In this document: positions 1,971 through 19,889 of the stretch, piece after piece
Layout of the letters: every line of letters begins with the position of its first letter
How positions within the stretch are numbered: position 1 is the first letter of the stretch
Assembly (NCBI GenBank): GCA_017694495.1
Contig: JADIMU010000055.1
Span: forward strand, 1-32,240
DNA: 32,240 nucleotides
DNA from: Candidatus Aphodenecus pullistercoris
GTDB taxonomy: Bacteria; Spirochaetota; Spirochaetia; Sphaerochaetales; Sphaerochaetaceae
Direction of reading: 5' to 3'
Position numbers and translations under genes: made by a program
Notes under the pieces: generated by a model
Told to the model about the DNA's origin: nothing
The model's input: only the letters and a program-made list of their open reading frames with translations
Databases searched by the model: none

Positions 1971-2900
1971 GTGAGGAAAAAGGAAACACAGGAACACAGG
2001 CTCTCCGTCAAGGCGGACTGGCACAAGTACAAGTGGCTCTACTGGATGGTCATTCCGGTCGTCCTGTACTATGGCATCTTTATGTACATACCCATGTTCG
2101 GCCAGGTCATCGCCTTCCAGGACTATCGACCTGCAAGGGGAATACTGGGCAGCGACTGGGTAGGCTTGGAGAACTTCATCGACTTCTTCAGTTCGCCATT
2201 CGCCTGGCGTGTGATAAGGAACACAATCATAATCTCGTTCAATGAGATACTCTTCGGCTTCCCCGCGCCAATCATCCTGGCGCTGTTGCTGAACGAGATG
2301 AGCTGCCGCGGCTACAAGAAGGCATTGCAGACGGTCTCATACATCCCGCACTTCGTCTCCCTCGTCGTCATGTGCGGCATCATAGTCGACTTCACCAGCA
2401 GCCGCGGCGTCATCACACACATCATGGAGTTCTTCGGAGTCGAGAACCAGAACCTCCTGGCAAACAGCTCCTACTTCGTCCCGATCTACGTGATTTCGGG
2501 AATCTGGAAGAACATTGGCTGGGGCTCGATCATCTACCTGTCGACGCTCTCCGGTGTCGACGAGAACCTTTATGAGGCCGCCGCCATAGACGGTGCGGGC
2601 CGATGGCAGCGTCTGCTGCACGTCACGCTGCCATCCCTTGTCCCGATCATCGCGATTCAGCTGATCATGCGTGTAGGAAACATCATGAGCGCCGGAGCTG
2701 AGAAGATCATCCTCCTCTACTCACCGGCGGTCTATGAGACGGCAGATACGATTGCAAGCTATGTCTACCGGTCAGGAATCCAGGAACAGAGCTATTCGCT
2801 GGCCGCGGCGGTAGGCATGTTCAACTCCGTCATCAACCTGGGTCTTGTGGTCTTCGCCAACTGGTTCAGCCGCAAATTCGTCGACGAGAGTCTCTGGTAG
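1971..2900 (+). CDS. Carbohydrate ABC transporter permease, LplB type (cluster 1)
   Basis: This 309-residue inner-membrane protein has about six membrane segments. It carries the LplB-family N-terminal pattern (KYKWLYWMVIPVVLYYGIF, then MYIPMFGQVIAFQDY) and the permease EAA loop YEAAAIDGAGRWQRLLHVTLP, which docks to the ATPase. GTG at 1971 is chosen because AAAAGGGAG lies 7 bases upstream and the family's start pattern begins just after it. The frame stays open back to 1752, but that extension would add 73 residues unlike any membrane N-terminus. The second permease starts 13 bases after the stop. LplB/YtcP pairs import oligosaccharides with a large binding protein and a shared MsmX-like ATPase; no ATPase is encoded here. 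Confidence 0.93.
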   Translation: MRKKETQEHRLSVKADWHKYKWLYWMVIPVVLYYGIFMYIPMFGQVIAFQDYRPARGILGSDWVGLENFIDFFSSPFAWRVIRNTIIISFNEILFGFPAPIILALLLNEMSCRGYKKALQTVSYIPHFVSLVVMCGIIVDFTSSRGVITHIMEFFGVENQNLLANSSYFVPIYVISGIWKNIGWGSIIYLSTLSGVDENLYEAAAIDGAGRWQRLLHVTLPSLVPIIAIQLIMRVGNIMSAGAEKIILLYSPAVYETADTIASYVYRSGIQEQSYSLAAAVGMFNSVINLGLVVFANWFSRKFVDESLW

Positions 2901-2913
2901 GGGAGGTGGAAAG

Positions 2914-3780
2914 ATGAAAAGGACAAGAAGCGACAGGATCGTCGACGTCATCATCGCGGTGGTGGTCACATTCATATGCATCCTCTGCCTCTACCCGATG
3001 CTCCACGTGCTGGCCGCATCCTTCTCGGACCCGATGCGCCTGATGAACCACCAGGGAATCATGCTCTGGCCGGATGGCTGGTCGCTGGACGGCTACAAGG
3101 CCATCATGAGGAACAAGGGCCTGTGGACCGGTTATCTGAACACAATCATATACCTCGTCTTCGGAACTGCAATCAACATGGTCATGACAATCATCGGAGC
3201 CTACGTCCTCTCACGCAAGGGTTACCGCTGGAAGAAAGCCATCACATTCTTCATCGTCTTCACGATGTACTTCACCGGTGGAACCATACCCAACTTCCTG
3301 CTGGTCAAAGGACTTGGTCTGCTGAATACAAGGCTCGCCCTCCTGCTGCCGAACGCGATTGCGACCTGGAACCTCCTGGTCCTGAGGACAGGCTTCGCCA
3401 GCGTTCCGGAGTCTCTGGTCGAGGCGCCCAAGATCGACGGGGCCAACGAGCTGCAGGTCCTGACGAGGATCGTGCTGCCGGTGAGCAAGGCTTCCGTCGC
3501 CGTCATCCTGCTCTTCTACGCGGTCGGCCACTGGAACAGCTGGTTCAACGCCATGGTCTATCTGCCTGCCGCCAGGGACCTCTATCCCTTGCAGCTCTAC
3601 CTCAGGGAGATCCTGATCTCCAACTCCGAGGTCGCGGCTGGCGACAACAGCATCAACTACATCGGTGAGCTGGTGAAGTACTGCGCCATAGTCGTGTCCA
3701 CGGTCCCCGTCCTGTGCATCTACCCCTTCGTGCAGAAGTACTTCGTCAGTGGTGTGATGATGGGATCGGTCAAAGAGTGA
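2914..3780 (+). CDS. Carbohydrate ABC transporter permease, YtcP type (cluster 1)
   Basis: This 288-residue inner-membrane protein has about six membrane segments and is the partner subunit of the LplB-type permease. The N-terminus has the pattern DVIIAVVVTFICILCLYPML, then LAASFSDP. The EAA loop reads LVEAPKIDGANELQVLTRIVLP, with P in place of the second A (EAP for EAA). The C-terminus (YPFVQKYFVSGVMMGSVKE) is the conserved end of this family. ATG at 2914 follows GGGGAGGTGG, and an in-frame extension back to 2845 overlaps the previous gene and looks non-protein-like. The binding-protein gene starts 25 bases downstream. The heterodimer forms the import channel; the substrate is inferred from the enzymes of the cluster. 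Confidence 0.94.
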   Translation: MKRTRSDRIVDVIIAVVVTFICILCLYPMLHVLAASFSDPMRLMNHQGIMLWPDGWSLDGYKAIMRNKGLWTGYLNTIIYLVFGTAINMVMTIIGAYVLSRKGYRWKKAITFFIVFTMYFTGGTIPNFLLVKGLGLLNTRLALLLPNAIATWNLLVLRTGFASVPESLVEAPKIDGANELQVLTRIVLPVSKASVAVILLFYAVGHWNSWFNAMVYLPAARDLYPLQLYLREILISNSEVAAGDNSINYIGELVKYCAIVVSTVPVLCIYPFVQKYFVSGVMMGSVKE

Positions 3781-3805
3781 ACTACAATACAAAAGGAGAT
3801 AAACA

Positions 3806-5416
3806 ATGAAAAAGACTTTGACAGCAATCATCGTCCTCATCCTCTCGCTCATCCCCCTCTATGCAGGTGGCAGCGCGGAGAGCACGGCGGACAATGTGGC
3901 CGTCGCCGAGGATTTCGTCGTCAGCTATCCGGTCGCGAACGATGGACAGACTCTGGACATCTGGTGCCCGATCCAGGCGCCTGCGGCCAAGTACATCACT
4001 TCCTACAATGAGCAGGAGATCTACAACGAGATCGAGAAGAACACTGGCATTTCGACCAACTACATCCATCCTGCCCTTGGCCAGGAGAAGGAGCAGCTTG
4101 GCCTCCTTATCGCCGGCGGTGATCTGCCGGACATCATCCAGATCCGTGACCTGTACAGTGGCGGAGCTTCCAGTGGAGTCGACGATGGCATCTTCTATGA
4201 TCTGACCGACCTGGTGAAGACCTATGCGCCGGATTATTATGCATTGATCACGCAGGATGATCTGATGTACAAGCTCGCAACCGACAACGATGGGCGCATC
4301 GTCGCCTTCCATCTGCTGAAGTCGACCGCCCCCGAGTTCTACCGCATCAACTTCACCGATGCAGTAATCGAGAAGTATGGTATCGAGGAGATGCCTGTCA
4401 CTCTCGACGACTATGAGGAGATCTTCTCCAGAATGGCGGCCGACGGGCTTGCAGGATTCGCTTTGCCGATGAATGGTCAGCTTGACCAGTTCATGTGGCC
4501 CTTCGGCATCACACCAGGCTTCTTCCTTGACGAGAATGGCAATGTTGCCTATGGCGCATACACGGAGGAGTACAGAGATTACCTTGAGTTCATGCATGAC
4601 TGGTATTCCAAGGGCTACATCTACAAGGACTTCATGAGCAACCTCTCGACAAACCAGAGACGCGCCCTCTATTCGAACCTCCAGGTCGGAATGCTCTACG
4701 ACGCCGTCGATCTGGCGAAGAGCCAGGCCGAATCGGCAGGCTTGAAGTCATATCCTGCGAACTATCCCCGCCAGTACGAAGGTCAGAAGATTCCATTCCG
4801 CACCGTCTACGAGGAGACGTTGCCCGTCACGCAGTCTGGCAGTTCGATGGCGACTGTCGTCACGACCAGCTGTGAGAATCCTGAGCTCGCCGTCCAGTAC
4901 CTGAACTATTTCTACACCCAGGAAGGCGCCGACCTGTGCAACTGGGGCATCAAGGACAAGGCCTATACGGTCGACGAGAATGGCCAGAAGCACTTCACCG
5001 ACTACATGCTGAACAATCCGGACATCGCTCTTGGAGACGTCCAGACACTGTTGAAGATCCATCTGACGGCCAAACTTGCCGAACCGGATGTCGTGTGCAA
5101 TCCGAACGTCATCTCCAACGAAGAGGCCCTCGAGCTCAGGATGATGTACTCGGATGATCCGAACGTCGACGATTCTCAGGTCCTTCCCGTCTTCGAGCTT
5201 TCCGCTGAGGCGGCCTATGACAGGTCCAGAATCCTCAGGGACATCACGACATACATCGACGAGATGACCGTCAAGTTCATTACGGGTGCTACACCGCTTA
5301 CGGAGTATGACAGCTACATGGCCCAGCTGAAGAGCATGGGCATCGAGGATGCCATCGCAATCACCCAACAGGAGTATGAGACGTTCATGTCCAAGCCCGG
5401 ACTCGAGAGCCTTTGA
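3806..5416 (+). CDS. Large extracellular solute-binding protein for oligosaccharides (cluster 1)
   Basis: This 536-residue protein has a clear signal peptide, MKKTLTAIIVLILSLIPLYA, followed by GGSAES. There is no lipobox cysteine, so cleavage by signal peptidase I after LYA is expected. The size and motifs (IDIWCP-like WCPIQAP, GGDLPDIIQI, WYSKGYIYKDF) match the roughly 500-residue binding proteins that pair with LplB/YtcP permeases, such as those for alginate or glycosaminoglycan oligosaccharides. ATG at 3806 follows an excellent AAAAGGAGAT. A strong hairpin follows the stop, which may stabilise this part of the message and keep the binding protein in excess. It should act in the periplasm, delivering the ligand to the two permeases just upstream. 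Confidence 0.93.
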   Translation: MKKTLTAIIVLILSLIPLYAGGSAESTADNVAVAEDFVVSYPVANDGQTLDIWCPIQAPAAKYITSYNEQEIYNEIEKNTGISTNYIHPALGQEKEQLGLLIAGGDLPDIIQIRDLYSGGASSGVDDGIFYDLTDLVKTYAPDYYALITQDDLMYKLATDNDGRIVAFHLLKSTAPEFYRINFTDAVIEKYGIEEMPVTLDDYEEIFSRMAADGLAGFALPMNGQLDQFMWPFGITPGFFLDENGNVAYGAYTEEYRDYLEFMHDWYSKGYIYKDFMSNLSTNQRRALYSNLQVGMLYDAVDLAKSQAESAGLKSYPANYPRQYEGQKIPFRTVYEETLPVTQSGSSMATVVTTSCENPELAVQYLNYFYTQEGADLCNWGIKDKAYTVDENGQKHFTDYMLNNPDIALGDVQTLLKIHLTAKLAEPDVVCNPNVISNEEALELRMMYSDDPNVDDSQVLPVFELSAEAAYDRSRILRDITTYIDEMTVKFITGATPLTEYDSYMAQLKSMGIEDAIAITQQEYETFMSKPGLESL

Positions 5417-5433
5417 GGCATGATGATTCTGGG

Positions 5434-5471: not shown

Positions 5472-6482
5472 ATGACAGAGGAAAGAAGACGGATGCTGAT
5501 GGACTTCGCAGATCCGGCATCCCTGATACCCGAGAGCGTCACTCCGCTCTTCGACTATTGGATACGCGATACGCACATAGCCCTTGGCCAGGATGGGTTC
5601 TACTACCTGACAGGTACGACCCGAAGTGAGGGGGAAGAGGCAGCCTTCCGCTTCAACGACGGCATCAGGTTGTGGAGGAGTCCCGACCTGAAGAAATGGG
5701 AGGATCTTGGTCTGGTCTGGTCCTTTGAGCGAGATGCGACCTGGCAGAAGGTCTGGTATACGGAGATGGGTGGATGGAAGGAGTCCTGTGCCGACGATCC
5801 GAAGGCCCACCGGGCCCTCTACGCACCGGAAATCCAGCAGATTGGAGGCGACTACTACATCACGGCGAGCATAAACTGGCCCAAACAGGAAGTGGGGGAC
5901 GAGGGCTCGTGCACCTTCCTCCTCAAGAGTGCGAGCGGACGCCCCGAAGGACCATATGTCGACGCCCATGGCGGTCCCCTGACCAGACGCATCGACTCAT
6001 CGCTCTTCATCGACGATGACGGGACTGTATATTACCTCTGGCAGGACGGTCGTATAGCCCGAATGAGACGCGACATGAAGGGCTTCGCCGAGGATCCCCG
6101 CTGGATTGTGCAGCAACACTACAATCCTGAACCCTACTGTGAGGGTGTTTCGATGTTCAAACACGATGGGCTATACCACTTGATCCTTGCCATATGGACA
6201 ATGGACGAGGGTGGGCGTGCCGGCTACTTTCCAGGAAGCAGAGAGCAGAAGCTTTCATACGACTGCGTCATTGCGACGAGCCGGAACATATATGGCCCCT
6301 ACAGCGAGCGATACACCGCAATCACAGGAGGTGGACACAACACAATCTTCCGCGACAAGGAAGGACGCATCCTGGCGACCATGTTCGGCAATCCGGTGAA
6401 TGACAGTTTCGCACCCTTCTACGCCAGGCCTGCAGCCATAGAGATGGAGTATCGGGATGGCAGACTCCATCCTAAGAGGTGA
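5472..6482 (+). CDS. GH43-like glycoside hydrolase (five-bladed propeller), cytoplasmic
   Basis: This 336-residue protein has no signal peptide. It carries the expected family-43 catalytic triad pattern: RDTHIALG near residues 32-39 (D33, candidate base), RIDSSLFIDDDG (D175, candidate pKa modulator) and YCEGVSMF (E224, candidate acid). LYAPEIQQIGGDYYI near 116-130 is also typical. Family members remove alpha-L-arabinose, beta-xylose or beta-galactose residues; the related GH117 family cleaves anhydrogalactose. ATG at 5472 sits behind TTGGAGG. The upstream in-frame codons from 5442 run into the hairpin and are rejected. Only 4 bases separate its stop from the sulfatase start. This enzyme has no counterpart in cluster 2, so the cluster 1 substrate probably has an extra side sugar. 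Family is likely; the exact sugar is unknown. Confidence 0.82.
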   Translation: MTEERRRMLMDFADPASLIPESVTPLFDYWIRDTHIALGQDGFYYLTGTTRSEGEEAAFRFNDGIRLWRSPDLKKWEDLGLVWSFERDATWQKVWYTEMGGWKESCADDPKAHRALYAPEIQQIGGDYYITASINWPKQEVGDEGSCTFLLKSASGRPEGPYVDAHGGPLTRRIDSSLFIDDDGTVYYLWQDGRIARMRRDMKGFAEDPRWIVQQHYNPEPYCEGVSMFKHDGLYHLILAIWTMDEGGRAGYFPGSREQKLSYDCVIATSRNIYGPYSERYTAITGGGHNTIFRDKEGRILATMFGNPVNDSFAPFYARPAAIEMEYRDGRLHPKR

Positions 6483-6486: not shown

Positions 6487-8019
6487 ATGGATCATATTCT
6501 GTATATCATGACGGATGAGCAGAGCCTCGAGACGATATCCGCGCTCGGGGCGGCGACGCACAGTACGCCGGCGATTGACCATCTGGTGAGGAATGGCACC
6601 TTCTATTCCAGGGCGTATACGGCTTCTCCCGTCTGTCTGCCATCACGGTGCGTCATGATGACTGGCATGATGCCGCACATTTCCGGCTCGATGAGCAATA
6701 CGACCGGAGCCTCGCTTTCTCTGGAGCATCCGAACCTCTTCACGATTCTAGGCAATGCCGGCTTCCGGACAAGCCTCCATGGCAAATGCCACTTCATTCC
6801 CGTGCCATATCCGGCGACGAGAAGTGACCAGACCCTCGAGTACGAACACTTCATCACGTACTACAAGGCTCTGGGCATTGAGCATCTCGACCTCCAGGAC
6901 GGGAAGAACAACTCCCTATGGTATTACGACGACTATTCGAAGGAAATGGAGAAGAAGGGGCGTCTGAAAGCCTATCGTGACGAGATACACATGAGCCCCG
7001 GCAAGCATGCACTTTCCGACTTCCCCTTTGGCGAGGATGACCATCCGGACGCTTGGGTCGGCAGGAAGGCCTGTGAGCGGATCGATTCGCTCGCCAGAGA
7101 TGAGAAGGCCTTCGTCTGGGTCAGCTTCTCAGGACCCCATTACCCTGTGGATCCTCCAGCTGAGTATATGCCGCTGGTCGATATGGCGAAGGACAGGGGG
7201 CGGGTCTTCTCTTCCGACGAATGGGATGATGAAAGCAAGTATCATTACAACGGCTTCCATGGTCCCGGTACGACAGAAGGCAGCGGACATGCGGATGACC
7301 ATGCCCAGAAGAACTATAGCGAGGACTACTGGAGGGCTTGGCGTCACCGCTATTTCGCCAACATCGTCCTGATTGACCGCTGGATCGGGAGGATACTCGA
7401 GTCCGCCAAGCGCAAATGGGGAGACGACTTTGCCGTCATCTTCACAAGCGACCATGGCGAGATGATGGGCAACCACAGTCTCTGGGGCAAGAACGGCTCC
7501 CTCTTTGAGGATGTCCTCCGTGTACCCTTGGTTGTGTACCAGCCGGGACAGGAAGGTCGTGTCGAGGATGCACTGGTCTGTTCTGACGACATCTTTCCGA
7601 CCATCATCAAACTCGCCGGAGCCGATTGTCCTTACGACCCACGACGCAGAGGCTTGCCATTGGATGAGGATGTTGCCAGAGGAGGACGAAAGGAGATTGT
7701 CAGCCTATGTGATGGCAGGCTTGCCATTGTCAGACCTCCATACAAGCTCGAGTGGAACCGCTATGAGCGTACTGGACGCATCTACAAGGAGTTCTATGAC
7801 CTCTCAAAGGATCCGCATGAGTTTGTAAACAGTTACATGGATGAGGATTACAGGGGCATCATTGATGAGATGGAGGTCAGACTCGAGCAACTTGAAAAGG
7901 AAGAGGGACTTTTGTCCTCTGTCTTCTATGTGAAAGGTGGAGGGGCAATGCCCTTCTATGTCGATTTCGGAGAAGGCGCAGGCTACTGGAACAACCATGG
8001 CCTGGATGTCGCCAGATGA
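6487..8019 (+). CDS. Type I sulfatase (formylglycine-dependent), cytoplasmic (cluster 1)
   Basis: This 510-residue alkaline-phosphatase-fold sulfatase has the catalytic signature SPVCLPSRCVMMTG. C50 is the residue converted to formylglycine, and R54 is the conserved arginine. The N-terminal metal site is MTDEQ (D10, E11), where most relatives have DD. The second metal motif is TSDHGEMMGNHSLWGK. No signal peptide is present, so it should act on imported sulfated sugars in the cytoplasm and release sulfate. ATG at 6487 follows AGAGGTGAGG; the in-frame frame back to 6457 overlaps the GH43 gene. Cys-type enzymes need an FGE or a radical-SAM anSME maturase, and neither is in this window. The regiochemistry of sulfate removal cannot be read from sequence. 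Confidence 0.92.
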   Translation: MDHILYIMTDEQSLETISALGAATHSTPAIDHLVRNGTFYSRAYTASPVCLPSRCVMMTGMMPHISGSMSNTTGASLSLEHPNLFTILGNAGFRTSLHGKCHFIPVPYPATRSDQTLEYEHFITYYKALGIEHLDLQDGKNNSLWYYDDYSKEMEKKGRLKAYRDEIHMSPGKHALSDFPFGEDDHPDAWVGRKACERIDSLARDEKAFVWVSFSGPHYPVDPPAEYMPLVDMAKDRGRVFSSDEWDDESKYHYNGFHGPGTTEGSGHADDHAQKNYSEDYWRAWRHRYFANIVLIDRWIGRILESAKRKWGDDFAVIFTSDHGEMMGNHSLWGKNGSLFEDVLRVPLVVYQPGQEGRVEDALVCSDDIFPTIIKLAGADCPYDPRRRGLPLDEDVARGGRKEIVSLCDGRLAIVRPPYKLEWNRYERTGRIYKEFYDLSKDPHEFVNSYMDEDYRGIIDEMEVRLEQLEKEEGLLSSVFYVKGGGAMPFYVDFGEGAGYWNNHGLDVAR

Positions 8020-8040: not shown

Positions 8041-9069
8041 ATGGATCAGAACTACAGGATGTCGGCCTTCAAGGGGGCTGTCTACTTCCCATCACGCGCC
8101 TACAACGCATATCAGACCTACGAGTATTTTGATGCGGACGAGATTGACCGCGACTTCTCATATGCCCAGAAGGCTGGCATAAGCGCGCTGAGGATCTTCA
8201 CAAGCTTCGAGCAGTATGAGAAGGGCCCTGGAAGTTTCTTCGACAAGTTTGACGCCCTGTTGTCCGCAGCGGAAAGGCACTCCGTCAGTGTGATGCCAAT
8301 CCTTTTCGAGAATTGTGGACGGGACTTCACCATCGAGGCCGCTATGGACCGTGATCCCGATACCGCCGTATGTGTGAAGTCGCCTTCGCTTGCAACAATC
8401 CAGCATCCTGACAGGTGGGAACCGTGCCTCGCCTTCGTCGAGGCATTCATGCGCCGTTATGGCGATGATGCGAGGCTGGTCGCAATCGAGGTCATGAACG
8501 AACCTGAGTACGGCATTGGTGACGTCGACTTCGCCTTGGCCATGCTGAGGAGAGCCAGAGAGTTCAAGAAGTCGGTTCCGCTTTCAATCGGCTGCGTCTC
8601 GATCGAACAGTGCCTATACTATGGAGATCTCATAGACGTCTACCAGTTCCATGACAACTTCCCGACTACGAGAGAGGCGTTCAAAAAGAAGCTTGATTTC
8701 GCTTCCAGCGTAAAGGCTGTGACAGGAAAGCCTGTCTGGATTTCTGAGTGGCAGAGGCTTCGTGTCAGTGGCCCCGGCTGGAACCAAGCCGTCATTCCGG
8801 AAGGTGACAAGTGTCCTGATCTGGCATCTCTCGCCGACCTGGTCTATTCCAGCGGCCTCGGCTCTTTCTTCTGGTGTCTGATGGTGAAGCCTGCCTACCT
8901 TTCAACACAGAGGCCTAATGGAACATTCAATGGTCTGTTCCATGAAGATGGATCCGTATACTCTCTGGAGGACTATAAGGCCGTGTCTGGCAAAGATGAT
9001 GTCACCGTGAGGAAGGAGCTGCCTTCCTGGTTCATTGAGGAGCGGAAACGGAAGGAGGCAGATAGATGA
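8041..9069 (+). CDS. GH5-like (clan GH-A) glycoside hydrolase, cytoplasmic
   Basis: This 342-residue single-domain TIM barrel has no signal peptide. The two clan-A catalytic glutamates are visible: VMNEPEYG (E154, acid/base after strand 4) and KPVWISEWQR (E236, nucleophile after strand 7). HDNFP near residue 204 sits where clan-A enzymes carry a conserved His/Tyr. It retains the anomeric configuration by family rule. GH5 is the nearest family by motif, but other clan-A families cannot be excluded. ATG at 8041 follows AAAAAGGAGG. Its TGA overlaps the GH2 start in an ATGA junction, so the two enzymes are coupled. No counterpart exists in cluster 2. It probably trims the backbone of the imported oligosaccharide. 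Confidence 0.82.
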   Translation: MDQNYRMSAFKGAVYFPSRAYNAYQTYEYFDADEIDRDFSYAQKAGISALRIFTSFEQYEKGPGSFFDKFDALLSAAERHSVSVMPILFENCGRDFTIEAAMDRDPDTAVCVKSPSLATIQHPDRWEPCLAFVEAFMRRYGDDARLVAIEVMNEPEYGIGDVDFALAMLRRAREFKKSVPLSIGCVSIEQCLYYGDLIDVYQFHDNFPTTREAFKKKLDFASSVKAVTGKPVWISEWQRLRVSGPGWNQAVIPEGDKCPDLASLADLVYSSGLGSFFWCLMVKPAYLSTQRPNGTFNGLFHEDGSVYSLEDYKAVSGKDDVTVRKELPSWFIEERKRKEADR

Positions 9070-10814: not shown

Positions 10815-12947
10815 TCAGTCTCCACCCCTGTGCTGGGCTCGATACTGGCCAGGGGTGATGCCCTCGTGCTGCTTGAACTTCCTCAGATAGTTTGCGACAT
10901 CCATATATCCGCAGTCCGTGATGATGTCCTTGATTGGCCTGTCGGTCTCCCTCAGCTCTTTCTTGACCTGGCTGAACCGCAGCTCTGTAGTGTAGCTCTT
11001 GAAAGTTGTGTCGGTTTCTTCCCTGAAGATTTTGTTGATGGAAGAGAAGGACAGCTTGAAGATCGAGGAGAGTTTGTCGAGGGAAAGATCCCTGTCTGCG
11101 AAGTGCTCCTGGACATAGCTGACGAGCTCATGTCTTGTCCGCTCATCCTCCTCCGCGCCCTTCTTCGTGATCTCCTCCACGAGCTGCCGGACCAGCTCCT
11201 CTAGCCATTCATGCAGCTGGGCCGGATCGCGGAATGTCATGAGCCGGTCAATCAAACCTTCATCGACGTCTTCCCTCACCTCGACACAGAGCTTGCCAAT
11301 CGTGTTGATGAGTTCATAGCTCATTCCCTTCACCATATTGGGTGACGGAGTCTCGTCGATGATTCTGAAAAGCTCGTCCAGGGCTCCCAATGCGGCGTCG
11401 AGGGAGCCGTTGCGCACTGCCTGCATTATGATTGACCGCTCCTGCTCGCGGTACTTGAAACTCTTCGACTCCAGTTTTTCCTTCATGAAGAAGTGCATGC
11501 CAGCCTCGTCTCCAGGACTGCGGTCCTTCATGAAGCACGCCTCGATGTAGGAGTTGTCCACCTTGAATGCCGAGTCGACACCTCCTCCTGCGTAGACTCT
11601 CACGGAACCTGTGAATGGTTTGGCTGCCTCGCTGACTGCTTTGGCCACCATTGGGCGTGAGATTGATTCTTCGTAGTTCGCCAGCAGAAGGAGTACACCA
11701 CGAACTTCAAGCTGGCATGCCGCAAGCGAGAAGTCAGTGTCTCTGGTCGTGTTGAGTCTGTGCTGGAGTGTGTAGACCTGATCCTCTTTCATGTTGACGG
11801 GAATATCCAGCAGAAAGACCGCGAACAGCGGATGGTGGAAGCTCATGTTCGCACATTTCAGGTTGTACTCCAGCGCCTTCTCGTCCCCGTCCCGGATTGA
11901 ACCGTCGACCAGTTTTCTGATGACCATCTCCTTGATTTGGACCGTCTTGAGTGAGAGTGCGCGCTGAATGCGGCTCTGTTCCTGCTTCTCTTTGAAGAAT
12001 GTCTGATACCAGTTTTTGGCTATCAGCAGCGAAATGACGACGGAGAAGATTCCGAGCACTGCGGTCAGGACCATCAGCATGGTCAGTGATGTGCGGCTGT
12101 CGGCATGGAAGGCAGCTTCGTCGGCTATAATGACATAGGAGAATCCGGTCTTTATGCTACGGCTCTTCATTACCGCATAATCCTCGCCGCCAGCGCCTTC
12201 GTACATTGCTAGACCTACTGGTGCTCGTGATACTCTGTCGACTACTCCTTCCATAATCGAGTCGTCCCAGTCCTCTTTCATGTATATGCAATCGGAGTAG
12301 GCTGTGAGGATCAGCAGCTGGCTGTCGAGCATTGAGAAGTATTGTTCATAGATTTCGTCGAAATAGTCGCTGCGGACCAGAAAACAAAGCGTTCCTGTGA
12401 TGTCGGTGCCAGTCAGGGGAACAGGAAAAAAAACGGCTGTTGAATAACCTGCTGCATTTCCGCTTGGCCTGATGGCAAGATAATATGGGGTGAGCACGCT
12501 GCACAGCCTGGTATAGATGCCTGAAACCGACAGGGAGATGTCGTATAACTGTGAGTGTTCGAAATCGTTCCAGTCCATGACCTGGTCGTCTACATAGACT
12601 TTCTGCGAGTGCCGGGGATAGTAGAGCATCAGGACATTGTCATCCAGCTGTGAGTCATAGCGGTGCAGAATGTCCAGAAATGCGTCCTCCTCCGCCTTCG
12701 TCGCATCCTCGTCAGGCAATGGCCCCTCCCGTGACATGCTCAGTGCAAGATCCTGGAGGGAGGAGTAGAACAGGTCGATTTCCTGGCTGAACTGAGTGAA
12801 GAGGCTCAGTTGGAAGTCCTCTGTCTTCTCCTTTTGGACAAAGTGCTGGTAATAGAGGAAATAGGAGGCTAGCACCAGAATTGGGACGATGAAAACCAGT
12901 AGATATTTTGCAAATGTACGCCTGTAGTCCTTTATCCTTGTGCCCAT
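10815..12947 (-). CDS. Membrane-anchored AraC-family regulator with extracytoplasmic sensor domain
   Basis: This 710-residue protein has two membrane helices (about 15-33 and 288-310) flanking a roughly 250-residue extracytoplasmic sensor domain, probably Cache-like. A linker region follows, then a C-terminal AraC DNA-binding domain over about the last 100 residues (LSLDKLSSIFKLSFSSINKIF; IKDIITDCGYMDVANYLRKF; GITPGQYR). This is the one-component design of YesS-type regulators of polysaccharide use. ATG at 12947 is chosen because TM1 follows directly. No ribosome-binding site is visible, and a good promoter ends 6 bases upstream, so the mRNA may be leaderless; GTG at 12980 is the alternative. 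It sits downstream of the cluster 2 GH2 gene and converges on cluster 1, so it may control either or both. Confidence 0.9.
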   Translation of the reverse strand: MGTRIKDYRRTFAKYLLVFIVPILVLASYFLYYQHFVQKEKTEDFQLSLFTQFSQEIDLFYSSLQDLALSMSREGPLPDEDATKAEEDAFLDILHRYDSQLDDNVLMLYYPRHSQKVYVDDQVMDWNDFEHSQLYDISLSVSGIYTRLCSVLTPYYLAIRPSGNAAGYSTAVFFPVPLTGTDITGTLCFLVRSDYFDEIYEQYFSMLDSQLLILTAYSDCIYMKEDWDDSIMEGVVDRVSRAPVGLAMYEGAGGEDYAVMKSRSIKTGFSYVIIADEAAFHADSRTSLTMLMVLTAVLGIFSVVISLLIAKNWYQTFFKEKQEQSRIQRALSLKTVQIKEMVIRKLVDGSIRDGDEKALEYNLKCANMSFHHPLFAVFLLDIPVNMKEDQVYTLQHRLNTTRDTDFSLAACQLEVRGVLLLLANYEESISRPMVAKAVSEAAKPFTGSVRVYAGGGVDSAFKVDNSYIEACFMKDRSPGDEAGMHFFMKEKLESKSFKYREQERSIIMQAVRNGSLDAALGALDELFRIIDETPSPNMVKGMSYELINTIGKLCVEVREDVDEGLIDRLMTFRDPAQLHEWLEELVRQLVEEITKKGAEEDERTRHELVSYVQEHFADRDLSLDKLSSIFKLSFSSINKIFREETDTTFKSYTTELRFSQVKKELRETDRPIKDIITDCGYMDVANYLRKFKQHEGITPGQYRAQHRGGD

Positions 12948-13033: not shown

Positions 13034-14803
13034 TCAGATTTCATAACCTTCAGGCCTGCGGGAGAATATAGCACGGAAGCGTTCCGTGTCGAACTTCTTC
13101 GAGCGGTCGTAGAAGTAGACGCCGTTCTTCTCCTGCTCGACATCGGTCAGCTGCGTGTAGCAGTAGCCGCAGATATGGTCCTCGGCGAGGATGGCTTGAG
13201 TCAGCTTCTCAAGCCTGTCGAAGTACTCGTCCTCACTCTGGACTGCATCTCCATAGCCCCAGGACTGGAGGTTCTGCGACTTCGAAAGGCTGCTGTTCCC
13301 CTGCGTCTCGGGATCCCATTTGATGCCTCCGTATTCGTCGACGAGGTAAGGCTGTCCTTCGTAGTCCGCTTCCAGGTCAGGATAGTTCCTGAAGGGCTTG
13401 CCGTCCTTGAGGCTGAGCGTCTGTGAAAGCTTCTCGGGGTCCTGGATGTAGCTGTGCACAGTCCACAGGTCCGTCATGTAGTGGATGTAGCCGCTTGCGT
13501 CGTTGACGGGGCGTGTCGGGTCGATTGTCCGGCACAGCTCATACGCTTCCTTGTGGAGCCTCCTGTGGGCCAGCGCGTTGCGGAAGTAGAAGGTCTCGTT
13601 CAACGGAGTCCAGGCTATGATCGAGGGATGGTTGACATCACGTTCGACGATCTCCTTCCACTCACTCAGGAAGTTCCTTGCTGGTAGGCCGTCATCATTG
13701 TAGTCCAGTCCCCAGGACGGGCTTTCCGCCCAGACCAGGTAGCCGAGCCTGTCAGCATGGTAGAAGAAGCGCTCCTCGAAGACCTTCTGGTGGAGGCGTG
13801 CCCCGTTGAAGCCTGCAGCTATCGAGAGTCTGATGTCGTTCTCGAGCGCCTCGTCGGAGGGTGCGCTCCAGTTGCCATCAGGATAGAAGCCCTGATCGAG
13901 GACGAGGCGCTGATAGAGCTTCTTGCCATTGAGGTATATCTGATTGCCCTCGACCTCGATGGTCCTGAGTCCTGCGTAGGAGCGCACCTCATCGATGACG
14001 AGCTCTCCGTCAAGGAGCCTGTATGTGATGCCATAGAGTGCGGGATTGCCAGGCTCCCAGAGTTCAGGCGAGTCGATGTGCACATGGTAAGTGGCCTGGG
14101 CCGAGGCCTTCGTCCTCGTCTGGAAAACCTTGCCCGAAGGAGAGCGTACTTCAGTCTCCAGGACGAGACCGCGCTTCAGTGCCCTGAACCTAGGGGCGAA
14201 GCACAGCTCCTGGGTGTCCGCATTCCAGTTTGTCCTGACTGTCTCGAGGGAATAGCGGCTGACCCTTTCGATCCAGACCGTCTGCCAGATTCCGGTCGTC
14301 CTGTGGTAGAAGCATGTATAGCTCGTCATGTAGCTCGACTGCTTTCCTGATGGTATCGATCCGTCCTGGAGGTTGCTTGTCGCCTTGACGACGAGGTCGT
14401 GGACTCCACCTGAGCATACATGCTCTGTGATGTCGAATGAGAAGGAGGATGATCCTCCATCATGGAAGCCGACCTGCTGGCCATCGATGTAGACCTCGCA
14501 ATGGTGGAAGACCGCGCCGAAGTTGAGTATGACACGCTCATTCCCGGCCACACTTTCAAGCTCGAGCTGTCTGTGGTAGTAGATGCAATCTATGACATCC
14601 TGGACACAAAGGCCGGAAAGAGGCGTCTCAGGAGCGAAGGGAACGAGGATCCTGTCCTCGAAGCCTTTGCTCTCGACCCTTTCCCTATCGATGTCGCTGT
14701 TGCGGTAGCACATGGCCTTGCGGCTGATATGGCAGGTCCACCAGCCGTTCAGGTTGATGAACGAGTGCCTCTCGAACTGCGGTCTGGGGTACTTTTCCTT
14801 CAT
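13034..14803 (-). CDS. Glycoside hydrolase family 2 enzyme (cluster 2), cytoplasmic
   Basis: This 589-residue protein has the same domain order as the cluster 1 GH2: sugar-binding jelly roll with FHDGGSSSF, immunoglobulin-like domain, TIM barrel. Catalytic glutamates are E403 (TPLNETF) and E490 (YLVDEYGG). There is no signal peptide. ATG at 14803 is preferred over an in-frame ATG at 14824, because AAAAAGGAGGGAC lies just before it and it forms an ATGA overlap with the sulfatase stop. The paralogues are most alike in the barrel (for example VWAESPSWGLD, NGARLHQKVFEE) and least alike in the middle domain, which suggests related chemistry with different contacts outside the active site. Linkage specificity cannot be read from sequence. 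Confidence 0.93.
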   Translation of the reverse strand: MKEKYPRPQFERHSFINLNGWWTCHISRKAMCYRNSDIDRERVESKGFEDRILVPFAPETPLSGLCVQDVIDCIYYHRQLELESVAGNERVILNFGAVFHHCEVYIDGQQVGFHDGGSSSFSFDITEHVCSGGVHDLVVKATSNLQDGSIPSGKQSSYMTSYTCFYHRTTGIWQTVWIERVSRYSLETVRTNWNADTQELCFAPRFRALKRGLVLETEVRSPSGKVFQTRTKASAQATYHVHIDSPELWEPGNPALYGITYRLLDGELVIDEVRSYAGLRTIEVEGNQIYLNGKKLYQRLVLDQGFYPDGNWSAPSDEALENDIRLSIAAGFNGARLHQKVFEERFFYHADRLGYLVWAESPSWGLDYNDDGLPARNFLSEWKEIVERDVNHPSIIAWTPLNETFYFRNALAHRRLHKEAYELCRTIDPTRPVNDASGYIHYMTDLWTVHSYIQDPEKLSQTLSLKDGKPFRNYPDLEADYEGQPYLVDEYGGIKWDPETQGNSSLSKSQNLQSWGYGDAVQSEDEYFDRLEKLTQAILAEDHICGYCYTQLTDVEQEKNGVYFYDRSKKFDTERFRAIFSRRPEGYEI

Positions 14804-16368
14804 TTGTCCCTCCTTTTTGGACATTCAATTGGATGATACACGACTGTGGGATCCTTATCGACATGGAATTCATCGTCGAAGAAGTAGCGCCTCGGATGGT
14901 TCTTCGTGCGGTAGCGGTGGGCACAGGAGGGAATGTCGTCCGATTTGCGCATCATCTCGGCGGCAAGTTCACGCGAGAGGTCGTAGGCTATGGGTATCAT
15001 GTCCTCGCGTCCGATCAGGTTGTTCCTCTCGAGCGGATCCTTCTCAATGTCGTAGAGCCATTCCTGACCCATCATGTTCAGTATGTACTTGTAGTGTCCT
15101 TTGACGACCATCCTGGTCTGGCCGCTCTGCGTCCAGGTGTTCAGACAGTCGAAGGTGCTGTAGCACTCCGTGGCTCCTTCTTCGACAGGAGTCAGTGCGT
15201 CTTTTTCCCTGTCCCAGAAGAGCCCGCCGAAACCTGATTCACTATAAGCGATTGAGAAATCCTTTTTCGGATATCTATCACCGGAAAGTATTGGTAAAAA
15301 ACTCTTGCCTTGGACGCCGAAGGGTATGTCGACTCCAAGCATGTCGCATATGGTCGGGAAGATGTCTATGATGCTGACGAAGTCCTTATCGTCGATTCCT
15401 CGCTGACTTACGCCATGCCCGAGGATGACCATCGGGATGTGTGCAAGCAGCTGGGCGACGTTGCATCCCTTGCGTATCAGGCCGTATTCGCCGATGAACT
15501 CGCCATGGTCGGAGAGTATGATGATGAGTGTATCGTCCAGAGCTCCGCGTGCCCTTATGCCTTCGACCAGGCGTCTGATCTGGTCGTCGATCAGGGAGAG
15601 CATCCCGTAGTAGTTCGATCTGTCGCGGAGTATCCGCTCCTTTCTGTCCTCCTTGTAGACCCTGTCCCAGGCCCAGTCCATGAATTCGTAGCTCTGGTCC
15701 TTTCCTTCAAGGTCATCACGTGATGTCTCGATCTCAGGCAGGCTGTGCGGAGGAAACTTGTCGAAGTATGGGTAGGGGACCTGGTAGGGATTGTGTGGCT
15801 CAGCGAATGACAACCATGTGAACGATGGTTTCCCTTCGGCCCTGCACTTGTCGAAGAAGGTGAAGAAGTCGCTGACGTTCCTGTAGGGCAGCTGCTCCTC
15901 CACAGACTGCGGCGAAGGTGTCGCACTGTCGCAGAAGTCCAGAGTCTTGAGGAAGTCGTCGACTTCCTGCTCCTTTTCATTGATTTCATGTCCATCTTCG
16001 ATGCCAAGGTGTCCGTTCACCCTGGCGAAATCGAAGTCGGATGGCCTGAGATGGCTGTGGTTCTTGCCGCACAGAGCAGTCCTGTAGCCTAGGCTTTTCA
16101 GCACGTCGAGCATGTCCTGTGTGTAGACTGCGTCCTGTGCGTTGTGGTTCGTCCGCACATGATGTGCGGATGGGACACGGCCTGTGAACATGCTCACCCG
16201 GGCCGGCATGCATGTCGGATTGGGCGTGTATGCCTTGTCGAATTCGAGGCCTTCGCTGGACAGACTGTCCAGGTAGGGCATGGTATCGAGGGCGAATCCC
16301 TTCGACTTGCGCAGGTCGAACCTCATCTGGTCCGACATGCATATGACTATGTCTGGTCTATTGCTCAT
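14800..16368 (-). CDS. Type I sulfatase (formylglycine-dependent), cytoplasmic (cluster 2)
   Basis: This 522-residue sulfatase has the signature NPTCMPARVSMFTG, with C53 as the formylglycine precursor and R57. CMPAR is the alanine variant of the usual CxPSR. The N-terminal metal site is CMSDQ (D13) and the second metal motif is LSDHGEFIGEYGLIRKG. No signal peptide is visible, so it should work in the cytoplasm like its cluster 1 counterpart. The two are clearly different outside the motifs and probably remove sulfate from different positions or sugars. The ATG overlaps the upstream permease stop (ATGA), and its own TGA overlaps the GH2 start (ATGA). This tight coupling implies that transport, desulfation and hydrolysis are made together. 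No maturase gene is nearby. Confidence 0.92.
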   Translation of the reverse strand: MSNRPDIVICMSDQMRFDLRKSKGFALDTMPYLDSLSSEGLEFDKAYTPNPTCMPARVSMFTGRVPSAHHVRTNHNAQDAVYTQDMLDVLKSLGYRTALCGKNHSHLRPSDFDFARVNGHLGIEDGHEINEKEQEVDDFLKTLDFCDSATPSPQSVEEQLPYRNVSDFFTFFDKCRAEGKPSFTWLSFAEPHNPYQVPYPYFDKFPPHSLPEIETSRDDLEGKDQSYEFMDWAWDRVYKEDRKERILRDRSNYYGMLSLIDDQIRRLVEGIRARGALDDTLIIILSDHGEFIGEYGLIRKGCNVAQLLAHIPMVILGHGVSQRGIDDKDFVSIIDIFPTICDMLGVDIPFGVQGKSFLPILSGDRYPKKDFSIAYSESGFGGLFWDREKDALTPVEEGATECYSTFDCLNTWTQSGQTRMVVKGHYKYILNMMGQEWLYDIEKDPLERNNLIGREDMIPIAYDLSRELAAEMMRKSDDIPSCAHRYRTKNHPRRYFFDDEFHVDKDPTVVYHPIECPKRRDK

Positions 16369-17270
16369 CCTTTCACGGCTCCTATCATTACGCCCTTGGT
16401 GAAGTATTTCTGCACGAAGGGGTAGATCAGCAGGACAGGTACTGAGCTCACGACGATGACGGAATACTTGATGGCCTCAGCCATCTTCAGCTTGTCGCCC
16501 ATTCCGACACTGTTGGAGCCCATCTGCTCTGTCTGACCGATCAGAAGTATATTCCGGATTATGATCTGGAGCGGATAGAGATTGTCGTCATTCAGGTAGA
16601 TCAGGGCATTGAAGTATGCGTTCCAGTAGTCCACCGCATAATAGAGGACGAGAACGGCGAGGATTGCGGTCGACAATGGGAGGACGATGGAGACCAGAGT
16701 CCTTATGTCTCCACTGCCGTCGATCATTGCGGATTCGTACATCTCCCTTGGTATGCTGTTCTCGAAGAATGTGCGCGCCACGATGAAGTTGTAGGTGTTG
16801 ATCGCCACCGGAAGGATGACTGCCCAGAATGTGTTGTACAGCCCGATGTCCCGCACGAGCATGTAGGTCGGAACCATTCCTCCATTGAAGTACATCGTGA
16901 AGAGGATGATCAGGGTCAGCGCCCTTCTGTGCGGCATGTCCTTCCTGGAGAGGGGATAGGCCAGACAGATTGTGAGCACCATGCTTGTAATCGTTCCGAC
17001 GACAGTGTAGAGGATGGAGTTCCTGTATCCTGTCCAGATGTCGCTGTTCTGGAAGACCATCTTGTACGGTTCAAGCGTGAAGCCCTTCGGGTAGATGGTG
17101 ACTTCTCCGTTGACGACGTAGTCGGGATCCGAGAACGATGCCGCAAGGGTGAAGAGGAGCGGATAGAGGACCACGACGATTATGACGACTGCGATGATGT
17201 TGATGACCAGGTCGAAGATCCGGTCTCCACCGGTCTCTCTGATTGCATTCCTGTTCTTTGTCCTTACCAT
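16365..17270 (-). CDS. Carbohydrate ABC transporter permease, YtcP type (cluster 2)
   Basis: This 301-residue inner-membrane protein has about six membrane segments and the family N-terminus (DLVINIIAVVIIVVVLYPLL, then LAASFSDPDYV). The EAA loop reads MYESAMIDGSGDIRTLVSIVLP, and the conserved C-terminus is YPFVQKYFTKGVMIGAVKG. It is the counterpart of the cluster 1 YtcP-type protein. The ATG lies inside the end of the LplB-type gene with a 7-base overlap, and its own TGA overlaps the sulfatase ATG. With the LplB-type subunit it should form the import channel fed by SBP2. The ATPase subunit is not encoded nearby, as is usual for this transporter type, where one ATPase can serve several importers. 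Confidence 0.94.
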   Translation of the reverse strand: MVRTKNRNAIRETGGDRIFDLVINIIAVVIIVVVLYPLLFTLAASFSDPDYVVNGEVTIYPKGFTLEPYKMVFQNSDIWTGYRNSILYTVVGTITSMVLTICLAYPLSRKDMPHRRALTLIILFTMYFNGGMVPTYMLVRDIGLYNTFWAVILPVAINTYNFIVARTFFENSIPREMYESAMIDGSGDIRTLVSIVLPLSTAILAVLVLYYAVDYWNAYFNALIYLNDDNLYPLQIIIRNILLIGQTEQMGSNSVGMGDKLKMAEAIKYSVIVVSSVPVLLIYPFVQKYFTKGVMIGAVKG

Positions 17271-18172
17271 AGGCTGTTCCCCGTCACTTTCTTTGACACT
17301 TTGTTCGCGATGAAGAGCAGGGCGCAGTTTATTGCCGAGTTGAAGAGGCCAGCCGCTGCGGCGTAGCTGAACTGTCCCTGCTGTATTCCGTTCCTGTAGA
17401 TGAAGGTGGAGATGATGTCGCTGGTCTCCATGTTGATCGGGTTCTGCATCAGCAGGACCTTCTCGAAGCCGACGTTCATGATCGAGCCGATGCGCATGAT
17501 CAGGAGTACCATGATCGTCGGAATCAGACTTGGCAGCGAGATGTAGAGTATTTTCTTGAAGCGGCTTGCTCCATCGATCGTCGCCGCCTCATAGAGTGCG
17601 GGATCGATTGCCGACAGTGCCGCTATGTATATGATCGAGTTGAAGCCCATGTGCTGCCAGACGTTCGAGAAGACGTAGAGCGAGCGGAAATGGTCGGGTT
17701 TCGCCATCAGGTCGACAGGTTCCAGACCGAAAAGTCCTCCTATGCTGTTGAAGAGGCCATAGTTCGGGTTGCTGAAGATGGTGAGCATGCTGACGATGAC
17801 GACGACCGAGAGGAAGTGCGGTATGTAGGTTATGTTCTGCACCGCCTTCTTCAGCCCCGTACCCTTTATCTCGTTGATTATAAGGGCAAGGATGATTGGA
17901 ATCGGGAAACCGACTGCCAGGGTGTAGAGGGACAGGAGTATCGTGTTGCGGGTGATGTCCGTGAAGTAGTATGAGTTGAAGAACTGCTTGAAGTACCTGA
18001 AGCCTACCCACTCGCTGCCTGTTATGCCGAGTGAGGGGTTGTACCGTTTGAAAGCGATCTGCACTCCATAGATGGGCACATAGTAGAAGATCAGATACCA
18101 GATCATGGGGATGGCGACGAGCGCGAAGAGCCCTCCCTTTCCTATGTACTTCTTCTTCCAGTCTTTTTTCAT
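17264..18172 (-). CDS. Carbohydrate ABC transporter permease, LplB type (cluster 2)
   Basis: This 302-residue inner-membrane protein begins MKKDWKKKYIGKGGLFALV, followed by the family pattern YYVPIYGVQIAFKRYNPSLG. The EAA loop is YEAATIDGASRFKKILYISLP. ATG at 18172 is chosen because AGGAGAAG lies just upstream. The frame stays open to 18358, but that stretch crosses two strong hairpins and part of the SBP2 gene and is rich in Pro, Gly and Arg, so it is not coding. The overlap with the next permease gene couples the two subunits. Six membrane segments are expected. It is clearly related to the cluster 1 LplB-type protein but not nearly identical, which argues against a very recent duplication. 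Confidence 0.93.
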   Translation of the reverse strand: MKKDWKKKYIGKGGLFALVAIPMIWYLIFYYVPIYGVQIAFKRYNPSLGITGSEWVGFRYFKQFFNSYYFTDITRNTILLSLYTLAVGFPIPIILALIINEIKGTGLKKAVQNITYIPHFLSVVVIVSMLTIFSNPNYGLFNSIGGLFGLEPVDLMAKPDHFRSLYVFSNVWQHMGFNSIIYIAALSAIDPALYEAATIDGASRFKKILYISLPSLIPTIMVLLIMRIGSIMNVGFEKVLLMQNPINMETSDIISTFIYRNGIQQGQFSYAAAAGLFNSAINCALLFIANKVSKKVTGNSLW

Positions 18173-18194
18173 TTTTCTTCTCCTGTTGGTTGTG

Positions 18195-18232
18195 ACAGGA
18201 GGAGGGGGCATGGTCATGGCCATGCCTCCTGT
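18195..18232 (-). promoter_or_regulatory. Hairpin upstream of the LplB-type permease gene
   Basis: On the plus strand, GGCATGG (18207-18213) pairs perfectly with CCATGCC (18220-18226) around a 6-base loop. ACAGGA (18195-18200) pairs with TCCTGT (18227-18232) as an outer stem, leaving a 6-base bulge. It lies 22 bases before the permease ATG in the message. With no T-run it is more likely to set mRNA stability or translation than to terminate. Confidence 0.5.
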
Positions 18233-18262
18233 TCTCCTAATGCGTCTTTTGTCTGATGAAGG

Positions 18263-18286
18263 GCCCCCGGGCTGTGGCCCGGAGGC
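18263..18286 (-). promoter_or_regulatory. GC-rich hairpin just after the SBP2 gene
   Basis: CCGGGC and GCCCGG pair perfectly around TGTG. Outer GCC/GGC arms extend the stem past one C-A mismatch. It starts 10 bases after the SBP2 stop, matching the position of the hairpin after SBP1 in cluster 1. A role in protecting the binding-protein part of the transcript from 3' decay, or in partial attenuation, is likely. Confidence 0.55.
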
Positions 18287-18296
18287 TGTTTGGGAA

Positions 18297-19889
18297 TCAG
18301 TTGGCCAGAGTCCTGTCGTATGCCTGCTGATAGATCTCCTCGAGGCGGGGCAGTCCAATCTGGTCGAGCGTCGAGCAGTACTCGTCCCACATGTCGAAGG
18401 ACCACTCGCCGACGATGAAGCGGGATGCCGCCTGGTCGCGGTAGGTGTTGAGGTCCTGGCTGATCATGAGGACCTCCTCATTCTCCTCAGGTGTGAAGCT
18501 GGGCGGAACAAGGGCCTCATCCGTGTAGGGCAGCATGGCCGCGGCGACTTCCTTGGTGAGGTTGCTGGCGACCAGTCCTTCCGTCTGGCTTGTGATCAGG
18601 CAGGGGAGGTTGCCGCCAGGTACGAGGCAGATCTCGCCGAGGGCGGTCATGAAGCCCCTCTCATCGTTGGCGATGTCCTCGTTCATCTGCGGGTAGCCGT
18701 TCTCGTCGAAGTAGAAGGTCTCGCCTTCGATGCCGTAGCGGAAGAAGAGGGAGCCTTCAGGCGAGTAGAAGTAGTCTACCCAGCGGCATGCCGCCTCGGG
18801 ATTGCTGCATGTGTTGCTGAGGGCGAAGGCGAAGGCTGTCGTCTCGACACCTGTCTTGGAGCTGGCCCAGAAGACCTCTCCGTCATAGGGGCCGCCGGCA
18901 GGACCTTCGACCGGGAGAAGAACGGTCATCTGGTCCTCGACGTTGACGAAGACGTCGGAGTAGGGCATGTAGAAGACTCCGAAGAGGGCGTTGGCCAGGT
19001 TGGACCTCCAGGCCGGCAGATCCCTCTTGTAGAAGTCGGACCAGAGCAGACCTTCCTCATACAGCTGGTTGAGGAGCATGAGGTATTCCTTGAAGGCCTC
19101 GTCCTGCAGCCAGAAGTGGACTTGACCGTCCTCGATGTTTACCGGCTGTGCGAACATGTAGTGCAGGCCGTAGGCGCTGCCGAGGGTCTGGAAGATGGAA
19201 CCGATCTCCCTGAAGCCGAGCGGAATCTCGTCGGCCTTGCCGTTGCCGTTGGGGTCCTGGGTCTTGAAGGCCCTGAGGACTTCGACGAGCTCGTCGATGT
19301 TGGTCGGCATCTCAAGTCCGAGGGCCTCGAGCCAGTCCTTGTTGATCCACTGCTTGAAGTCGATCTTTCCCGTATTCGAGACGTCGATCTGAGGCAGGGC
19401 GTAGATGTTGCCGTCGGCGGAGGTTATAGCCTGCTTGATGCCCGGGTCGGCCTCCATGAGGGCCTTGAAGTTGGGCATGTACTGGTCGATCAGGTCGTTC
19501 AGCGGCATCAGCTGTCCGCTCTCGATGCCGTAGCGGGTGAGCTCATTCTGCGTGAAGACGGGGCGCAGGAAGATGTCTGGGAGGTCGTTGGAGGCGAAAA
19601 GGAGGTTCTTGTTCTCCTCCTTGCCCTGATCGGGGACTTCCTGATAGTCCATATGGATGCCGGTCATCTCCTCATATTTCTGGAGGACGAAGACCTCGTC
19701 CCAGTTAGCCTGGTTGGCGTCCCTGATGCCGAAGACCGTCATCGTGAGCGGTTCGTTGACGATCGGGAATCCTGTAGGATTGACCGGAACCTTGGGCTCT
19801 GAGGCTGCAGAGCTTTCGGAGGAGCCGCCGGCGAAGAGGCTGAGGCTCACTGCGAGCAGGATGGTCAGAATGGCAGAGAATCTTTTCAT
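18297..19889 (-). CDS. Large extracellular solute-binding protein for oligosaccharides (cluster 2)
   Basis: This 530-residue protein starts with the signal peptide MKRFSAILTILLAVSLSLFA, followed by GGSSESSAASEPKVPVNPTG. As in SBP1, no cysteine is present at the cleavage site. Visible features typical of the large LplB-partner binding proteins are FASNDLPDIFLRP, DPNGNGKADEIPLGF (a calcium-binding-loop-like DxNxNxxxDE near residue 205) and YSPEGSLFFRYGIEGETF. ATG at 19889 follows AAAAGGAGCG; an open extension to 20084 overlaps the response-regulator gene and is rejected. The calcium-like loop also occurs in alginate-binding relatives, so an acidic sugar ligand is plausible. It delivers substrate to the two permeases downstream and is the first structural gene after the two-component system. 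Confidence 0.93.
   Translation of the reverse strand: MKRFSAILTILLAVSLSLFAGGSSESSAASEPKVPVNPTGFPIVNEPLTMTVFGIRDANQANWDEVFVLQKYEEMTGIHMDYQEVPDQGKEENKNLLFASNDLPDIFLRPVFTQNELTRYGIESGQLMPLNDLIDQYMPNFKALMEADPGIKQAITSADGNIYALPQIDVSNTGKIDFKQWINKDWLEALGLEMPTNIDELVEVLRAFKTQDPNGNGKADEIPLGFREIGSIFQTLGSAYGLHYMFAQPVNIEDGQVHFWLQDEAFKEYLMLLNQLYEEGLLWSDFYKRDLPAWRSNLANALFGVFYMPYSDVFVNVEDQMTVLLPVEGPAGGPYDGEVFWASSKTGVETTAFAFALSNTCSNPEAACRWVDYFYSPEGSLFFRYGIEGETFYFDENGYPQMNEDIANDERGFMTALGEICLVPGGNLPCLITSQTEGLVASNLTKEVAAAMLPYTDEALVPPSFTPEENEEVLMISQDLNTYRDQAASRFIVGEWSFDMWDEYCSTLDQIGLPRLEEIYQQAYDRTLAN

Follow-up and report, generated by a model that had tools for sequence, protein, structure and literature searches.

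Two facing importer-sulfatase gene clusters in a gut-type spirochaete suggest that oligosaccharides are taken up before desulfation

The window analyzed in this study is contig C43 (JADIMU010000055.1; 32,240 nucleotides) of the draft genome of Candidatus Aphodenecus pullistercoris (2.07 Mb, 98.6% complete). This gut-type spirochaete has uncultured Spirochaetales metagenome-assembled genomes (MAGs) as its closest named relatives, with a Sphaerochaeta MAG and Breznakiella further off. The window contains two facing operons, A (1971-10811, plus strand) and B (13034-19889, minus strand), with a gene for an AraC-type regulator in between. Both clusters encode an exported large solute-binding protein (SBP), two CUT1 permeases, a Cys-type S1 sulfatase and an enzyme of glycoside hydrolase family 2 (GH2). 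A GH43 enzyme and an unclassified hydrolase of the GH-A clan are extra enzymes found only in cluster A. None of the sulfatases or hydrolases has a recognizable export signal. We consider it probable that these genes encode two importers and the enzymes for cytoplasmic desulfation and hydrolysis, forming one pathway for related glycans.

In the proposed mechanism, each cluster encodes an AlgQ/Smon0123-like ABC importer that depends on its SBP and would carry intact oligosaccharides into the cytoplasm; the energy would probably come from a MalK-type ATPase whose gene lies outside the clusters. Once inside, the terminal sugar would lose its sulfate to a Cys-type sulfatase, itself activated by the genome's anaerobic maturase. 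Exo-acting hydrolases (the GH2_19-like pair, the GH43 enzyme and the GH-A hydrolase) would dismantle the sugar from its non-reducing end. Importer B and its sulfatase, next to a two-component system, would serve a sulfated glycan, while importer A would handle a related one that may or may not be sulfated. This glycan may contain arabinofuranosyl (Araf) or galactofuranosyl (Galf) units.

We profiled orthologues across a family comparison set of 139 genomes, using a threshold of E<=1e-60 for the cluster B sulfatase gene (sulB). SBP-B and sulB orthologues were detected in exactly the same six genomes, from four genera, and were adjacent in every one. In five relatives (L062, L063/L168, L064, L065 and L163) the gene order is kinase-regulator-SBP-permease-permease-sulfatase, plus a GH2_19 gene, and three of these five loci also contain the GH-A gene. 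The histidine kinase is conserved in the relatives as well. Gene order is kept across genera and is thus no product of chance. These patterns argue strongly that module B is a conserved unit in which transporter and sulfatase are linked. The preliminary description of this DNA had proposed intact uptake and cytoplasmic processing for both clusters; the sequence favors this reading, and the link between transporter and sulfatase is strong for cluster B but weaker for cluster A, as a congener (G001) has the cluster without its sulfatase.

G001 keeps cluster A at 71-81% identity (permeases, SBP, GH43, GH-A and GH2), with the AraC-type regulator, which adjoins the GH2 gene there too, at 46%. A 262-bp gap lies at the place of the cluster A sulfatase gene (sulA), with no recognizable sulA remnant, and no sulB orthologue was found in the G001 genome at the same threshold. 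Among the 139 genomes, sulA orthologues were present only in this genome and in G181. Because G001 keeps importer A but has no cluster A sulfatase, this importer seems not to need one. Its substrate is probably sulfated optionally or only at certain positions, and the glycan handled by cluster A may be unsulfated or sulfated to a varying degree. The G+C content at third codon positions is 0.64-0.68 in GH43, sulA, GH-A and GH2 A versus 0.75-0.84 in the transporter genes. We rejected this difference as a sign of a recent gain of sulA, because the AraC gene resembles the former group and the lower value is not decisive.

Several points weigh against the proposed pathway. Transport, binding and enzyme activity are all predicted from sequence, the lack of signal peptides rests on a heuristic and proteins may be exported by other routes, and the substrate assignment leans on a GH2_19 label with four characterized members and on weak neighborhood clues. 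The missing sulfatase in G001 also counts here, as does the distribution of sulfatases among GH2_19 loci: all five Spirochaetota loci (L062-L066) carry sulfatases, but at most 3 of 75 others do, so that sulfate is no general property of GH2_19 substrates. The last two points would fit furanosyl oligosaccharides that for the most part carry no sulfate, derived for instance from arabinans, arabinogalactans or microbial galactofuranans, with sulfatases that are accessory enzymes for occasional sulfated variants or act on another ester. We regard this as unlikely, because sulB is inseparable from SBP-B in all six genomes. In addition, both the window (25% identity) and L064 have a pair of dissimilar sulfatases, which is what one would expect if sulfate occupied two different positions.

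Clusters A and B most likely serve one pathway. In L064 (contig C35 of G181, judging by length) the two modules are joined in one direction (permA1-permA2-sbpA-sulA-GH2-kinase-regulator-sbpB-permB1-permB2-sulB-GH-A), which makes a single pathway likely. The GH-A gene is in cluster A here and in cluster B of L062/L063, and the GH2 of G001 cluster A is a close sister of the GH2 in cluster B of L062/L063 in the tree. G001 has the same GH-A and GH2 pair in its cluster A, and G009/G012 have it in theirs for B. We interpret this as one pool of enzymes shared between A and B. That the clusters serve unrelated substrates and are neighbors by chance has a small probability. The SBPs are only 23% and the sulfatases only 25% identical, and module B occurs without A (G009, G012, G090 and G020) as does A without B (G001). 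However, the fusion in L064, the 60% identity of the GH2s (44-47% for the permeases) and the pairing of the same GH-A and GH2 with A or B depending on the species speak for a joint role. Terminal enzymes that are alike, combined with unlike SBPs and sulfatases, would suit a pair of related glycans that are not the same size or do not carry sulfate at the same position.

The hydrolases give clues to the substrate of the proposed pathway. Both GH2s matched the structure 7XYR (E 3.4e-153 for GH2 A and 3.6e-154 for GH2 B) far above any other solved GH2, with GH2_18 structures at about 1e-58 to 1e-64. 7XYR has been placed, uncharacterized, in GH2_19 (PMC12243196), for which that paper used a network threshold of 1e-59; our PDB-search E-values are not the same as network E-values. 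Known activities in GH2_19 are on furanosides (alpha-L-Araf and beta-D-Galf), the GH2_18 structure 9J6M is a beta-D-galactofuranosidase, and no GH2_19 member is tied to sulfated glycans in the main text (PMC12243196). The window GH2s are like GH2_19 in their similarity to 7XYR and in the nucleophile motif, DE(F/Y)GG, and their activity on furanosides is a prediction. Both retain the acid/base NE motif (PLNET), unlike 7XYR, and an invariant YTQLTD motif is compatible, at the sequence level, with Thr replacing the -1 subsite Trp. A beta-glucuronidase or beta-galactosidase assignment was rejected, as the PDB label 'beta-glucuronidase' of 7XYR is annotation only and the NCBIfam matches are far below cut-off.

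The GH-A hydrolase had no match in Pfam or NCBIfam. Its AlphaFold2 (AF2) model (pLDDT 75.8) is a TIM barrel, and its profile matches GH2 and GH5 barrels weakly. Glu154 (NEP) and Glu236 (SEW) are invariant even in a Bacteroidetes relative with 23% identity and are probably the catalytic residues. It did not qualify as GH5, as the Pfam Cellulase model was unmatched and close relatives reached 17 bits versus a cut-off of 23.5; this is possibly a new glycoside hydrolase family. In other spirochaetes, paralogues (37-41%) adjoin CUT1 importers, RpiB and an epimerase of the AraD type, a clue to pentoses that, together with the GH2_19-like enzymes, points to a furanosyl or pentosyl glycan. Galactofuranosidases are also known from GH43_31 and GH5_13 (PMC10115798), and the window GH43 can be placed at the family level only. 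A sulfated Araf or Galf oligosaccharide is our best guess for the substrate, and a tentative one. More speculatively, the clusters may represent an undescribed cytoplasmic pathway for such oligosaccharides in which GH2_19 enzymes and a new GH-A family act after desulfation, with sulfatases gained and lost around a constant core. Since neither cluster has a gene for a secreted endo-enzyme, the organism may live off products that others release.

The AlgQ1/AlgQ2 system (1J1N, 1Y3N and 4TQU) of Sphingomonas sp. A1 imports alginate oligomers, and by SBP similarity the window importers are of the same transporter type. To our knowledge the alginate system has no sulfatase, unlike the window clusters. 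The nearest solved structures for SBP-B were 5G5Y/5G5Z (pneumococcal SP0092, E 1e-50), with AlgQ2 and Smon0123 also matched, and for SBP-A Smon0123 (5XS8/5GUB, E 1e-15), then AlgQ2. Smon0123 binds sulfated chondroitin disaccharides and belongs to a glycosaminoglycan (GAG) cluster of Streptobacillus moniliformis, with permeases Smon0121/0122, ATPase Smon0120, sulfatase Smon0126 and GH88 enzyme Smon0127, that imports sulfated disaccharides; the sulfatase is predicted to be cytoplasmic (PMC5430744). The two systems share an AlgQ-type large SBP, two permeases of the aldouronate (LplB/YtcP) type and a predicted cytoplasmic sulfatase and glycosidase, and intact import is proposed for the window as well. 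However, the Streptobacillus cluster has PL8 and PL12 lyases, GH88 and its own ATPase gene, none of which occur in the window clusters. These instead have GH2_19-like enzymes, GH43, the unclassified GH-A hydrolase, paired importers and a two-component system.

This resemblance, together with GH88 and heparinase II/III genes beside other sulfatases in the genome, raises the question of whether clusters A and B are themselves GAG loci for sulfated disaccharides. We find this improbable and rejected a GAG substrate. A Pfam search of the proteins of both clusters found no lyase or GH88, and the GH2s fall in a furanosidase-type subfamily, not in the glucuronidase groups. Moreover, in a low-identity alignment SBP-A has Leu, Leu and Ala where Smon0123 has Arg204, Arg393 and Trp284, which contact sulfate or stack. 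The window system would thus work like that of Streptobacillus without being a member of the GAG system. The substrates named in the preliminary description (mucin, chondroitin, heparin and algal galactans) find no support in the enzymes of the two clusters, and the GAG-type and mucin-type genes lie elsewhere in the genome.

Cellular location was predicted with a hydropathy heuristic (12-residue Kyte-Doolittle mean) and the position of the catalytic core. In both SBPs a basic n-region precedes a hydrophobic core free of charged residues (means of 3.1 and 2.6), typical of a signal peptide. By comparison, the highest means in the six enzymes (two sulfatases, four hydrolases) are only 0.4-1.1 and fall on stretches that include charged residues, the sulfatase cores start at residues 3-6, and no in-frame start upstream of the six enzymes adds a signal peptide, in agreement with what had been reported for them from the sequence. 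All nine sulfatases of the genome begin at or near the first catalytic strand, as do most of those sampled in relatives. No secreted GH2 is reported in Spirochaetota, and about 10% of GH2_19 are secreted (PMC12243196). Import before desulfation therefore looks like a genome-wide rule and no peculiarity of these clusters. A Bacteroidetes locus (L129:273-7469) with a GH2_19-like gene and two sulfatases has signal peptides on all three proteins and is an extracytoplasmic counterpart of the window arrangement; the window sulfatases lack the signal peptides that mark Bacteroidetes-type extracytoplasmic desulfation. Non-classical export is unreadable from sequence, but export by an unrecognized route, with periplasmic desulfation followed by import, is hardly credible given the core position in all nine sulfatases and the clear signal peptides on the SBPs of the same genome and on the L129 sulfatases. 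Uptake before desulfation is the reading that the sequence favors.

The earlier view of this as an unusual strategy was overstated, given the uniform sulfatases, the GH2 secretion data and the Streptobacillus precedent. The principle of import followed by inner desulfation is already known, and what is new is the different, partly uncharacterized enzyme set. Our literature search on spirochaete sulfatase clusters found nothing directly relevant. If correct, the pathway would be a spirochaete case in which desulfation and depolymerization are kept intracellular, sharing neither sulfate nor sugar with neighbors, quite unlike the Bacteroidetes systems, in which sulfatases are secreted. The GH2_19 pair, the unclassified GH-A hydrolase, two divergent sulfatases and two SBPs provide a concrete gene set for identifying the glycan. 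In addition, the presence or absence of a sulfatase around one importer core (this genome versus G001) makes a shift in SBP specificity upon sulfatase gain or loss testable.

Both sulfatases carry the C-x-P-x-R signature in the alignment and score well over the PF00884 cut-off of 25 bits. The closest PDB match of sulfatase A was 7OZ8 (E 1e-36), the Bacteroides S1_46 sulfatase BT1918 acting on 3S-GlcNAc (PMC10154620). At 130 bits this closest solved relative does not support a subfamily claim, and since no PDB chain scored higher for either sulfatase, we rejected subfamily assignment from these distant matches. One sulB orthologue, in the Sphaerochaeta UBA6084 MAG (L065:18137-19657), is Ser-type, with Ser replacing Cys at the formylglycine position (SMPAR), inside an otherwise Cys-type group. 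For maturation, a single anaerobic sulfatase-maturing enzyme is clearly recognizable in the genome (TIGR03942, 365 bits, cut-off 349), located beside two other sulfatases, and there is a match to the FGE family on contig C42. Neither cluster has an ATPase gene and a single TOBE_2 (MalK-type) ABC ATPase was found elsewhere in the genome, so importers A and B likely share it.

Contig C23 has other sulfatases of the genome beside a lacto-N-biose phosphorylase, contig C26 has them beside two GH88 genes and one for heparinase II/III, and SBP genes also occur next to sulfatases; uptake of more than one kind of sulfated glycan is therefore probable. In locus L003 (G000:C23, 693-7789) the sulfatase-maturing enzyme stands in a row with two sulfatases that lack signal peptides and with a lacto-N-biose/galacto-N-biose phosphorylase, likely a cytoplasmic route for sulfated mucin-type disaccharides. 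Loci L004 and L005 (G000:C26, 1-30000) combine four sulfatase matches with two GH88 genes, one SBP gene and one gene resembling heparinase II/III. They likely form a GAG locus, one that resembles the Streptobacillus system more closely than clusters A and B do.

Open reading frames and domains of the window (Table 1) were as previously described for the two facing clusters (SBP, two LplB/YtcP permeases, Cys-type sulfatase and GH2). The AraC-type regulator and the kinase/regulator pair were absent from that description. Permease A1 starts with GTG at position 1971 and SBP-B with ATG at position 19889. Several neighboring genes overlap by a few bases, a pattern of translationally coupled operons.

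Table 1 Features of clusters A and B and their regulators in the window.
Feature	Coordinates	Strand	Evidence
Permease A1 (CUT1, LplB-like)	1971..2900	+	PF00528 58 bits; 44% to permease B1
Permease A2 (CUT1, YtcP-like)	2914..3780	+	NCBIfam CUT1-type permease models, all below cut-off; 47% to permease B2
SBP-A, signal peptide, predicted exported	3806..5416	+	SBP_bac_1; signal-peptide-like N-terminus
GH43 glycoside hydrolase, no signal peptide	5472..6482	+	PF04616 99.7 bits; PDB matches weak only
Sulfatase A (sulA), S1 Cys-type CLPSR, no signal peptide	6487..8019	+	PF00884 137.5 bits; core from residue 3
GH-A-clan hydrolase, family unassigned, no signal peptide	8041..9069	+	TIM barrel AF2 model; invariant Glu
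GH2 A, GH2_19-like, no signal peptide	9066..10811	+	PDB 7XYR E 3e-153; PF00703/02836/02837
AraC-type regulator, membrane-anchored	10815..12947	-	HTH_18 63.6 bits; hydrophobic segment near N-terminus
GH2 B, GH2_19-like, no signal peptide	13034..14824	-	PDB 7XYR 518 bits; 60% to GH2 A
Sulfatase B (sulB), S1 Cys-type CMPAR, no signal peptide	14800..16368	-	PF00884 150.4 bits
Permease B2 (CUT1, YtcP-like)	16365..17270	-	PF00528 30.6 bits
Permease B1 (CUT1, LplB-like)	17264..18172	-	NCBIfam permease models below cut-off; 44% to permease A1
SBP-B, signal peptide, predicted exported	18297..19889	-	SBP_bac_1 59.8 bits
Response regulator, AraC-type helix-turn-helix	19972..21015	-	PF00072 and HTH_18; beside SBP-B in relatives too
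Histidine kinase, YesM-like (Cache-like sensor, HAMP, His_kinase)	21015..22697	-	PF06580, PF00672; PF02743 below cut-off

A scan of the window for RNA families and tRNAs found none. Beyond the clusters, positions 23619-25505 encode an ankyrin-repeat protein with many near-identical repeat copies and a hydrophobic N-terminal segment, which is probably exported. Two consecutive proteins with signal-peptide-like N-termini (26192-29057) are possible outer-membrane barrels; the second has no Pfam match, and the first has a below-cut-off match to the capsule-assembly protein Wzi.

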